Source: Bacteriovoracaceae bacterium (GTDB lineage: Bacteria; Bdellovibrionota; Bacteriovoracia; Bacteriovoracales; Bacteriovoracaceae). From it: a DNA stretch of 64,000 bases. A program made the translations under genes and the position numbers. Position 1 is the stretch's first letter, and each line of letters starts with the position of its first letter. Where the stretch lies: NCBI GenBank assembly GCA_023954635.1, contig JAGSHI010000002.1, positions 1-64,000 of the forward strand, written 5' to 3'. Of this stretch, positions 19,435-64,000 are shown piece after piece. The notes beneath the pieces were generated by a model that was given only the letters and a program-made list of their open reading frames with translations, did not search any database and was not told the DNA's origin.

Positions 19435-21276
19435 CTAGTAATAAAAATACATTCCCAGTTTATGAACGATAACTTCCCTACCATCTTTGGTTTTACTTAG
19501 ATTAGAATTAATTTTGATATCACCGAGTCTTTCAAGACCAATTGTCATTCCAGCTGTTGAGCCTAAAATCCATTGACTAGATTTATTCGCCAGGTCTGAT
19601 TTGATGTTTCCTTCCAAATAAAATTTTAATTTTTTATTAGCAGCATGACCTATTCGAGAAGTCGCAATCCACCCTGCACTATGACCATCAGGTAAGTCTT
19701 TTGCAACTTGTGTAAACCCTCCCGCTAAAACACTAAAAAGGGATTTGTTTTTATTCATAAATGAAATTCCAATCTTCCCTTCAAGATTTATCGCCATACA
19801 ATAATCACATCGATAATCTGAGACTCTTTTGATATTTGAATTTACTTCCCAGGAAGCTCCGGGATCAATAGTGTTGAGAGGGGTATGAGAAGTAACTGAT
19901 ATGAATTCTATTTTCTTCATCGTGATTCTTTCATCACCAGCTTCAACTTCAAGTCCAAAAGCCTCCACTCGACTAAAGGGTTCGTAACCCATGTCGGTAT
20001 CAGTCCAGTCTTTAAAAATTTGATAATTTGAAAACTCAAAAAAGAGATCTTCTTTATCGTGTGCCATCCCTAAACTTAGTAAACTCGATTGATGCCCTGT
20101 CTCCGGTCTATTTTGAGAAGATACTAATACCAAAGGAGAGCTTTCTTTTCTTCTCGCCCTTCTCTTTAAAAGTTTCCTATAGAGCTTTTTAGATTGCTTA
20201 GTAAGTCTTCCTTTTGCCTTCATTTTTTTATAATTAAAATAATCCAATGCTGTATCGAGTGAAGTAATCCTTTCATTTTTAACTTTTTTATTTTTAATTA
20301 GATTCTCGAAATCTTTTTTCTCTTTCTCATTTAAATATTTGATTCTTTGTTCTAATACCTTCTTTACTCCTGGCCGGAATTTCACAGACCGAAGAGGAAT
20401 TTCTCGTGTAACACGTTTAACGACATCATGAGGCATTACAAACCATTTATGATCTTCTACAAGGTTCCAAGTTGGATTTCCGACATTTAAAAGAGCAGCA
20501 AGAGTATATGAACAATTTTCATCTAGGAACCAGTAATCAAACCAAGCATTATAATATAACTCCCAAAGGTGAGCTAATATCAAATCGATCTCTGATTTTT
20601 CAAGCTTAAGTTCATATTCCCACAAGTCACGGCTTTCTATTTGTGCATATTCATTAACTTTTTGATAGTAGGGACTAAGACTAAACCCTGCTCGGTATTG
20701 ACCAAACAATCCCTTCATTGCGTACAACACAGGATTATCAGATCCGTCTACCATGGCCCCAAAACTTGCTCCATAATCTAAAAGGTCATTCTCTCTTTTC
20801 CCTTTTTTGAACCTAATAAAAGTATGGCCAAACATTGATGCTGGATTATTTGGGTATGAGCTTGCAAAGATTAAAGCTATTCCCTTGGGATCAACTCCCT
20901 TTTTCCAGTTCTCAAAATCCTTACAATAAATATTTTGAAATTTTAGCTTCAATGTTTTTTCTAAAAACATTCGTCTTGCAGGAAAACGGCAGAGTGGATG
21001 TTTATTAACATCTCCTTTTATTTTTTTTCTAAATTTAATAAGTGTAGATTTAAGTTCTTTATCTGGATCGATTTTTCCCTTTTTGTTTAGAAAAAATCGA
21101 GGACTATCTATCCTAGACTCTGAAAGATCTTCCTTCTTTTCCATATGAAGTAGAAGTTTCCACTGCCTAGTTCTTGAAATGGTTTGTACAGGATCAAAAT
21201 TATCGGCAGCAAGACTTACTGCCGATATCAATAAAGTAAGAAGAAGTGATTGTTTTATGATCAAACAGTTCCACAT
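19435..21276 (-). CDS. DUF4105 (Lnb N-terminal-like) exported protein with C-terminal barrel-like half
   Basis: 613 residues with a hydrophobic leader (about 7-24). Residues 130-260 match the DUF4105 type domain: SSYPNNPASMFGHTFIRF with His151, the GLFGQYRAGFSLSPYY segment, and FLDENCSY with Cys255. The conserved His and Cys suggest a papain-like thiol hydrolase; that is inference. From about 385 onward the sequence alternates like an outer membrane barrel and ends in MYFYY. The start overlaps the DUF3015 gene by 16 bases. A second DUF3015-DUF4105 pair lies at the right end of the window, so this is a duplicated two-gene module. Confidence 0.8.
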   Translation of the reverse strand: MWNCLIIKQSLLLTLLISAVSLAADNFDPVQTISRTRQWKLLLHMEKKEDLSESRIDSPRFFLNKKGKIDPDKELKSTLIKFRKKIKGDVNKHPLCRFPARRMFLEKTLKLKFQNIYCKDFENWKKGVDPKGIALIFASSYPNNPASMFGHTFIRFKKGKRENDLLDYGASFGAMVDGSDNPVLYAMKGLFGQYRAGFSLSPYYQKVNEYAQIESRDLWEYELKLEKSEIDLILAHLWELYYNAWFDYWFLDENCSYTLAALLNVGNPTWNLVEDHKWFVMPHDVVKRVTREIPLRSVKFRPGVKKVLEQRIKYLNEKEKKDFENLIKNKKVKNERITSLDTALDYFNYKKMKAKGRLTKQSKKLYRKLLKRRARRKESSPLVLVSSQNRPETGHQSSLLSLGMAHDKEDLFFEFSNYQIFKDWTDTDMGYEPFSRVEAFGLEVEAGDERITMKKIEFISVTSHTPLNTIDPGASWEVNSNIKRVSDYRCDYCMAINLEGKIGISFMNKNKSLFSVLAGGFTQVAKDLPDGHSAGWIATSRIGHAANKKLKFYLEGNIKSDLANKSSQWILGSTAGMTIGLERLGDIKINSNLSKTKDGREVIVHKLGMYFYY

Positions 21277-21713
21277 TCACCATGGATAATGATTTTATCC
21301 AATACTTCTACAGCATTTTCATTATCACCTTTGTAAATTTTATCAAAACTACCTTGCAGCGAAGGAGCAAACTTATCCATTTTGCATCCTAAGATTTCGT
21401 TAAAAGCACTTAAGTACTCTCCACTTCCTCTTGAGATATCAAGCATTAATTGATGATGGTTTGCTTCAGCAAAATGAATGGCCTCTTTTTCTGTTTTCAC
21501 AATACTGTGTTGAGAACAGTTTGAAGTTCCAAATGTCATTCCCAGAGTATTTAGCAACATTGCGTTGGTTGTCGCTCTCAGTGAAGAAGAAACCAAAGAG
21601 TTCTTTTTCAGTATGTACCAACCAGCTCCACAACCAGAACTACTGTCCTTAGCAAAAGATTGAGCTGACATAGATAAAATAGTCAAAAGCATAAGTATTT
21701 TTATAATTTTCAT
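21261..21713 (-). CDS. DUF3015 family small exported protein
   Basis: 150 residues with signal peptide MKIIKILMLLTILSMSAQSFA, then GCGAGWYILKK, LRATTNAM, GMTFGTSNC and DISRGSGEYLSAF. The pattern GCGxG...ATTN...GMTxGTSNC...ISRGxG is shared with the gene at 62729. Cysteines likely form disulfides in the periplasm. Function of the family is unknown. It overlaps DUF4105 translationally, so the two proteins probably act together, perhaps as substrate or chaperone and processing partner. Divergent from the 21813 gene across about 100 bases. Confidence 0.85.
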   Translation of the reverse strand: MKIIKILMLLTILSMSAQSFAKDSSSGCGAGWYILKKNSLVSSSLRATTNAMLLNTLGMTFGTSNCSQHSIVKTEKEAIHFAEANHHQLMLDISRGSGEYLSAFNEILGCKMDKFAPSLQGSFDKIYKGDNENAVEVLDKIIIHGECGTV

Positions 21714-62728: not shown

Positions 62729-63187
62729 ATGAAAAAACTTCTACTTACTATGCTTGCTTTTGGAATGATGTCTGCTGCTAACGCTGCTTCTTATCAGGCT
62801 CAAGGTTGTGGACTTGGATCAACAATTTGGACAGACGGATCAAGTCTTGTACACCAAATTCTTGGAGCTACAACTAACGGACTTTCTGGTAACCAAACTT
62901 TTGGTATGACATCAGGAACTTCAAACTGTGAACTTGATGGAGCTGGTGGACAAGCTCAAACAGTTTTCATCGAAGCTAACAAAGTTGCTCTTTCTAACGA
63001 CATCGCTCGTGGAAACGGAACAACTCTTGCTTCACTTACAAAAATGTACGGTTGTTCAAATGTTGATGCCGTAGGAACAGTTCTTCAAAAAAGATATGAA
63101 GAAATTTTTCCTTCACAGAATGCTGCTGCGACTTCAATTAACAGCAAAATTTCTAACATCATCGACGAAACTAAAGCTTGTATCTAA
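62729..63187 (+). CDS. DUF3015 family small exported protein (second copy)
   Basis: 152 residues, signal peptide MKKLLLTMLAFGMMSAANA. QGCGLGSTIW, GATTNGLSG, GMTSGTSNC, DIARGNG and MYGCSN match the family pattern and the first copy at 21261. Strong GGAGG ribosome site and strongly biased codons indicate high expression. Followed after 50 bases by a DUF4105 gene, as in the first pair, but here with a terminator between. Confidence 0.88.
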   Translation: MKKLLLTMLAFGMMSAANAASYQAQGCGLGSTIWTDGSSLVHQILGATTNGLSGNQTFGMTSGTSNCELDGAGGQAQTVFIEANKVALSNDIARGNGTTLASLTKMYGCSNVDAVGTVLQKRYEEIFPSQNAAATSINSKISNIIDETKACI

Positions 63188-63211
63188 GCTAATTTAGATT
63201 TTGCCAATTAG

Positions 63212-63255
63212 GCCCTGATCATCTAGGCTGATGCCTTATGATCAGGGCTTTTTTT
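63212..63255 (+). terminator. Intrinsic terminator containing the start codon of the next gene
   Basis: GCCCTGATCAT (63212-63222) and ATGATCAGGGC (63238-63248) pair perfectly over 11 bases with a 15-base loop, followed by seven T. The ATG of the DUF4105 gene is the first three bases of the second arm, so the hairpin both terminates and buries the start. Confidence 0.88.
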
Positions 63256-64000
63256 ATACTCAATATTCTTATTTTTTCATGTAGTGTATTCTCTGCAAGT
63301 TCAAAAGAATTTAATCAACTAATAAAAACAGGTTTAAACAACTCAGCTCATCTTGATGCTCAATGGCTTAACGCTCTTCATTATAAGAAAACTTTATTTG
63401 GAGGTTTCCAGAGTGAAGCCGACAGTAAGTCTTTCTTTTTTGCAAAAGACGGAGAAGATAATTCCAAATCAGAAATGCAGGCCACAATATTGGCCCTACT
63501 TGAAGGTAAGCCTTCAGATATAAATCAACACGCTCAATGTCGATTTCCAACGCGTACAAAAATAATTAAAAGACTTTTTCCAGACCTTGCCAATAATTTA
63601 AAAATCGTTTGTCCCCAGTTCGAAGAGTTTAAGAAAAAATTATCTGCGAAAGCTGTTTCAATTGTTTTTTCTTCCTATTATTTGGATACTCCAGCTTCAG
63701 CTTTTGGGCACACTTTAATGCGTTTTAGTAAATATGCAGATCCAAAAGAGGGTGAATCTTTTGAGCTTCTCGACAATGCCGTAAATTATTCAGCAAATGT
63801 AACAACAAATAATGCTCTCATTTATGGACTACTTGGGCTTTCAGGTGGCTTTAAAGGTGAGTTCGCTTTTATGCCTTATTTTTATAAAGTTCGTGAGTAT
63901 AACGACTTTGAATCAAGAGATATATGGGATTACCATTTAAACCTTAATCAAGAACAAATAGACACTGTAGTCACACATGTCTGGGAAATGAAGCAAACTT
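63238..64000 (+). CDS. DUF4105 family exported protein (second copy, cut by window end)
   Basis: 254 residues visible, frame open to the window end. Signal peptide MIRAFFILNILIFSCSVFS; then SSYYLDTPASAFGHTLMRF, DNAVNYSANV, GLLGLSGGFKGEFAFMPYFYKVREYNDFESRDIWDY, colinear with the first copy (19435). The His of FGHT is present; the Cys of ENCSY lies beyond the window. The start codon is inside a terminator hairpin; an in-frame stop (63229-63231) excludes an earlier start. Confidence 0.83.
   Translation, partial: MIRAFFILNILIFSCSVFSASSKEFNQLIKTGLNNSAHLDAQWLNALHYKKTLFGGFQSEADSKSFFFAKDGEDNSKSEMQATILALLEGKPSDINQHAQCRFPTRTKIIKRLFPDLANNLKIVCPQFEEFKKKLSAKAVSIVFSSYYLDTPASAFGHTLMRFSKYADPKEGESFELLDNAVNYSANVTTNNALIYGLLGLSGGFKGEFAFMPYFYKVREYNDFESRDIWDYHLNLNQEQIDTVVTHVWEMKQT

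Follow-up and report, generated by a model that had tools for sequence, protein, structure and literature searches.

Analysis of the junction between a DUF3015 gene and the downstream gene lnb, within a 64,000-nt stretch of Bacteriovoracaceae DNA (the window), revealed a terminator-like hairpin that carries the lnb start codon and, nested within this hairpin, a predicted promoter for lnb. We propose, with a probability of roughly two in three, that this overlap of terminator and promoter insulates lnb from a neighbor predicted to be very strongly expressed, and that lnb is translated from a leaderless or nearly leaderless mRNA made from its own promoter. If this proposal is correct, about 60 bases would serve four functions (transcript end, next promoter, a lock on the translation of read-through RNA and the first codons of a signal peptide), and a gene pair that standard operon prediction would call one operon would be built not to be one.

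Terminator-like hairpin carrying the lnb start codon

All features of the junction lie on the plus strand. The upstream gene, copy 2 of DUF3015 in the window, occupies positions 62729–63187 (Pfam PF11220, E 5e-41), and lnb runs from 63238 to the end of the window at 64000 and beyond; in the full contig its ORF encodes 637 aa and ends at contig position 65151. Pfam analysis of the full contig ORF identified DUF7843, Lnb_N (formerly DUF4105; PF13387, E 1e-51) and a C-terminal DUF7840, the Lnb_N domain making the product a putative Lnb, the lipoprotein N-acyltransferase. A search of solved structures with the lnb product found no relative, and the literature search for DUF3015 returned a single, unrelated mention.

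The DUF3015 stop codon (TAA, 63185–63187) is followed after 24 nt by the first arm of the hairpin (GCCCTGATCAT, 63212–63222), which forms a perfect 11-bp stem with the second arm (ATGATCAGGGC, 63238–63248), and a run of seven T (63249–63255) follows directly. Arm 2 opens with the lnb ATG (63238–63240), also the predicted site of a leaderless or nearly leaderless transcription start; arm 2 encodes M-I-R-A, and the T-run supplies Phe-Phe codons of the lnb signal peptide. Within the main loop, folding predicted a further apical stem (AGGC, 63225–63228, with GCCT, 63233–63236), the details of which vary among relatives. The hairpin thus has the stable G+C-rich stem and immediately adjoining T-run of an intrinsic (Rho-independent) terminator, and the T-run, which was also recovered in a terminator scan, is the predicted U-tract of a DUF3015 terminator. 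RNAfold gave −28.5 kcal/mol for the hairpin, compared to a mean of −14.6 for 200 dinucleotide shuffles, none of which was as stable (z −4.46). An inverted-repeat search with a minimum length of 12 reported nothing at the junction because the perfect stem is 11 bases long.

A preliminary description of this DNA had noted an 11-base perfect stem with seven T at 63212–63255, the second arm opening with the ATG of the gene that it named DUF4105, and had suggested that read-through RNA would hold this ATG in a stem with no clear ribosome site; our analysis agrees on each of these points. The stem, T-run and ATG are present in the sequence, no Shine-Dalgarno site lies upstream of the ATG, and the predicted fold of read-through RNA leaves the three bases of the ATG with unpaired probabilities of 0.06/0.01/0.00. 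For an RNA starting at the ATG itself, the corresponding predictions are 0.99/0.64/0.55.

These features could have a trivial explanation, namely that the hairpin does no more than terminate DUF3015 transcripts, with lnb translation actually beginning at a non-standard codon further downstream; terminators are ordinary after highly expressed genes, and the intergenic space is short. We give this explanation almost no credence, since no ATG, GTG or TTG follows in the ORF from 63238, either before the signal peptide or before the mature part of lnb, and a wrong lnb start was rejected for lack of an alternative start codon. Moreover, arm 2 and the T-run encode a normal signal-peptide start, which reads MI[RK][GA][FIL]F in most close relatives and MKTALLL or MYFLLL where the hairpin is elsewhere.

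Predicted promoter nested in the hairpin

Comparison of relatives revealed a promoter-like pattern that a generic promoter scan had not listed because the rules of the scan need 9 of 12 matches, whereas this pattern (TTGCCA-TAGGCT) has 8. When ten close relatives were aligned, the columns between stop codon and loop that lay outside the arms and never varied were TTG and TA...T, with a gap-free spacing of 17 nt. In the window, the invariant TTG (63201–63203) opens a predicted −35 box, TTGCCA (63201–63206), and TA...T belongs to a predicted −10 box in the hairpin loop, TAGGCT (63224–63229), which is weak, with three of six consensus matches, and ends 8 nt before the lnb ATG (6–10 nt in relatives). 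The pattern TTG-17-TAnnnT ending 5–10 nt before the ATG, chosen after the sequences were seen, occurred in 10 of 11 relatives, whereas shuffles predict 0.05 such cases and 7 of 248 control genes had it; TAnnnT at a gap of 5–10 nt occurred in 18/18 loci, compared to 3.65 expected. All 18 loci used have a pyrimidine immediately ahead of the ATG, as would be predicted for transcription starting on the A.

With the −35 box before arm 1 and the −10 box in the loop, arm 1 would be the promoter spacer. We propose that polymerase arriving from DUF3015 transcribes both arms and the T-run and terminates 10–20 nt into lnb, and that in any RNA escaping termination the lnb ATG would be locked in the stem. 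The gene itself would be transcribed from its own σ70-type promoter, TTGCCA-17-TAGGCT, with a start on the ATG or only a few bases away; its mRNA would lack arm 1, so that the terminator could not form and the ATG would be free, and would be translated as a leaderless or nearly leaderless message. As a corollary, elongating polymerase would cross the lnb promoter before stopping, raising the possibility that lnb is partly occluded when DUF3015 is most active.

A start codon overlapped by a hairpin is typical of regulated switches, and the junction hairpin has such an overlap. A protein, a ligand or ribosome stalling could therefore open the hairpin, allowing read-through and exposing the ATG, with the apical stem and the conserved loop bases potentially forming a binding site. 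This explanation is improbable: the conserved loop bases are exactly those of a −10 box at promoter spacing from the conserved TTG, the hairpin sequence is unrelated between genera despite its kept position, and no competing antiterminator fold was visible in the RNAfold output for the junction. An Rfam search of the junction found no family above threshold, and a known RNA family or riboswitch was rejected on this basis, the match to STnc480 (25 bits, with 72 needed) being a chance one.

A leaderless start for lnb is consistent with a broader signal in the family. In a 1.14-Mb sample of a relative (G004), 50 of the 325 genes without a Shine-Dalgarno site had TAnnnT at a gap of exactly 6 nt from the ATG, whereas other gaps gave about 12; of the genes with a Shine-Dalgarno site, 8 of 328 had the box at 6 nt. 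The peak corresponds to roughly 12% of the genes without such a site in excess of background. These counts suggest that leaderless genes are a sizeable minority in Bacteriovoracaceae. The 8-nt gap at the window lnb is off the sharp 6-nt genomic peak, and transcription may start at the ATG or 1–3 nt before it. Leaderless mRNAs are known, for example, in Zymomonas (119 of 2,675 start-gene pairs) and Mycobacterium (PMC7566282), where, as predicted for lnb, the 5′ end of the transcript lies no more than 5 nt from the start codon and a Shine-Dalgarno site is not required; in contrast to these, the predicted lnb message is combined with a terminator. Our proposal, if true, would predict leaderless mRNAs in a group for which the literature searched contained no description of leaderless genes.

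Unequal codon adaptation and related systems

Codon adaptation differed markedly between the two genes. Measured against a small reference set from the same genome (EF-Tu, GroEL and ribosomal genes, with a few dubious short ORFs), DUF3015 ranked first of the 84 contig genes (0.79, compared to a median of 0.54), whereas lnb was average (rank 35). A strong transcript beside an ordinary gene is a situation in which insulation pays, and these ranks suggest that insulating lnb from its neighbor is probably the purpose of the element. The window contains a second, paralogous DUF3015-lnb pair (19435–21713, minus strand), in which the ORFs overlap, the lnb ATG lying 16 nt before the end of the DUF3015 stop codon, and in which no hairpin was found at the junction. 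With codon-adaptation ranks of 20 and 46 of 84, this hairpin-free pair is unremarkable and offers a natural control for the element.

These observations bear on further claims of the preliminary description. That the first copy of the gene pair lacks such a hairpin proved correct, and its expectation of high DUF3015 expression gains indirect support from the top codon-adaptation rank. Its expectation of very low lnb expression gained no support, since the conserved promoter-like pattern would give lnb an mRNA of its own without arm 1 and codon adaptation of lnb is average, and a switch that opens the hairpin, which it had offered as an alternative, is not needed with a promoter-like TTGCCA-17-TAGGCT and found no counterpart among known RNA families.

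The same imbalance could arise from plain attenuation, in which the two genes form one operon, lnb has no promoter, an imperfect terminator sets high DUF3015 and low lnb expression by partial read-through, and access to the ATG depends on random breathing of the stem or on passing ribosomes. Intrinsic terminators that act as attenuators between operon genes likewise consist of a G+C-rich stem and T-run between a strong and a weak gene. The terminator-like hairpins that occupy the DUF3015-lnb junction throughout the family and also in several other phyla, and the very unequal codon adaptation, would fit this scheme. So would some loci (L023 and L029) whose lnb ORF contains the hairpin and begins 1–2 nt past the end of DUF3015, as in translational coupling. 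Attenuation, however, leaves unexplained the invariant TTG-17-TA...T of the close group, the missing Shine-Dalgarno site and the use of an ATG that is paired in read-through RNA. Unlike an ordinary attenuator, the predicted terminator at the lnb junction overlaps the next predicted promoter and the coding start, and its T-run codes for Phe-Phe of the signal peptide. We regard attenuation as unlikely, although it is the strongest competitor to insulation by terminator-promoter overlap.

Part of the logic of the proposed insulation has precedents. In the transposase gene of IS10/Tn10, an inverted repeat in read-through RNA hides the start region, and the gene's own RNA starts inside the repeat. 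The likeness to the arrangement proposed for lnb is that an inverted repeat in outside RNA hides the start and the gene's own RNA begins inside it; the difference is that IS10/Tn10 is a mobile element facing its neighbors, whereas DUF3015-lnb is a fixed pair in several phyla, with a terminator. The closest parallel is provided by phage T4 gene e, encoding lysozyme, and I-TevI. There, read-through RNA made early forms a structure over the ribosome site, and late transcription begins at promoters inside the 5′ strand of that structure, giving late RNA without that strand (PMC3014915). The arrangement proposed for lnb would share with it a hairpin that blocks translation of upstream RNA, a gene's own promoter in the 5′ side of the hairpin and conservation in related genomes; the T4 promoter differs in being a phage late promoter that serves timing, and that passage describes no terminator (PMC3014915). 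At lnb, sequence prediction places the equivalent elements ahead of arm 1 (−35 box) and within the loop (−10 box), and they recur in 10 of 11 relatives. In contrast to T4 gene e, lnb combines a predicted chromosomal σ70-type promoter with an intrinsic-terminator hairpin and its T-run, a leaderless or nearly leaderless start and shared signal-peptide codons. The logic would thus be known from T4 gene e, and the chromosomal setting, the intrinsic terminator, the predicted start and the shared codons would be new, extending a phage timing device to a chromosomal gene pair.

Conservation and variants among relatives

Of 129 genomes of the family, 69 contained a DUF3015 relative (E ≤ 1e-20), nearly always adjoined by lnb. 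The pair also occurs in Myxococcota, Campylobacterota and Proteobacteria, with a terminator-like hairpin in many of the junctions, often well before the lnb start, and the maintenance of gene order across several phyla points to a shared function of these two poorly understood proteins. In a survey of Bacteriovoracaceae junctions that took, for each locus, the best hairpin from the end of DUF3015 to the mature part of lnb, with start codons picked by hand, all 54 loci had a hairpin (dG ≤ −10.7), 52 of them at −12 or below, and the hairpin lay over the lnb start codon in 30, before it in 16 and inside the ORF in 8. Among 147 control junctions of equal length from the window's own contig and a relative, −12 was reached in 50, and a T-tailed hairpin over the ATG occurred in 3.

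Covariation supported the stem in the close group. Twelve pairs were counted, with 94% of cells paired and 6 of the 12 changed on both sides, a level reached in none of 500 shuffles and far above slid controls, the relatives being non-independent observations. One of these six was a silent AGG/AGA change in the lnb Arg codon, with a corresponding C/T change in the noncoding arm. A one-base insertion in arm 1 that distinguishes the window and a congener (L003) was likewise mirrored by one in arm 2. The alignment of orthologous loci, which the preliminary description had put forward as a check, thus found pairing kept with two-sided changes and no loss of pairing in close relatives.

Other genera showed different arrangements at the same junction, with hairpin sequences unrelated between genera. 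In a second group of 15 loci, nearly all from one genus, an unrelated hairpin (GGGACCTG..CAGGTCCC) is followed by the ATG, and a TATAAT-like box preceded at 17 nt by TTGCAA or TTGTAA lies directly before arm 1 in all 15. A start 7 nt past this box falls in arm 1, so that the gene's own mRNA would lose part of that arm; the fold of this predicted mRNA is weak in 13 of the 15 loci and still −17 to −18 kcal/mol in L051 and L052. The U-tract is often poor in this group (T at 2–8 of 9 positions), and the −35 box falls on DUF3015 codons, so that selection on the protein may account for its conservation. In a further genus (g3) and in L025 and L030, a TAnnnT box lies between hairpin and ATG, 6–7 nt before the latter, and in L015 a terminator-like hairpin and a promoter stand side by side, un-nested.

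Such variety could reflect terminator-nested promoters that recur in Bacteriovoracaceae and have been re-invented independently to insulate lnb from DUF3015, with unrelated hairpins at the same junction in different genera that each leave the start of the gene's own mRNA past arm 1 and an arm and T-run doubling as signal-peptide codons; for this broader proposal we consider the chances evenly balanced.

In the 8 of 54 loci with the hairpin inside the lnb ORF, a start at the ATG could not remove it, and translation-coupled antitermination is more likely there: ribosomes reinitiating on lnb would block the hairpin, and lnb would be transcribed only when translated. In four relatives (L023, L029, L017 and L026), the terminator-like hairpin lies wholly within the lnb ORF and codes for the signal peptide, and in three of the four the ORF begins 1–2 nt after the DUF3015 stop. 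Such coupling may hold for relatives of this kind but is very improbable at the window locus, where 50 nt separate the DUF3015 stop from the ATG in arm 2 and a reinitiating ribosome would first have to pass the formed hairpin.

Finally, the arrangement is rare among other gene pairs. ORFs in the 1.14 Mb of relative G004 were called by a simple method, and 1 of 565 close same-strand pairs there had a terminator-like stem spanning the start codon; a general genomic habit was rejected on this count. By the same method, DUF3015-lnb was the only one of 44 close same-strand pairs with such a stem in the window's own 95-kb contig. In these 1.14 Mb of G004, one gene other than lnb, in a same-strand pair with a 37-nt gap, has a small terminator-like hairpin over its ATG and TATAAT just upstream.
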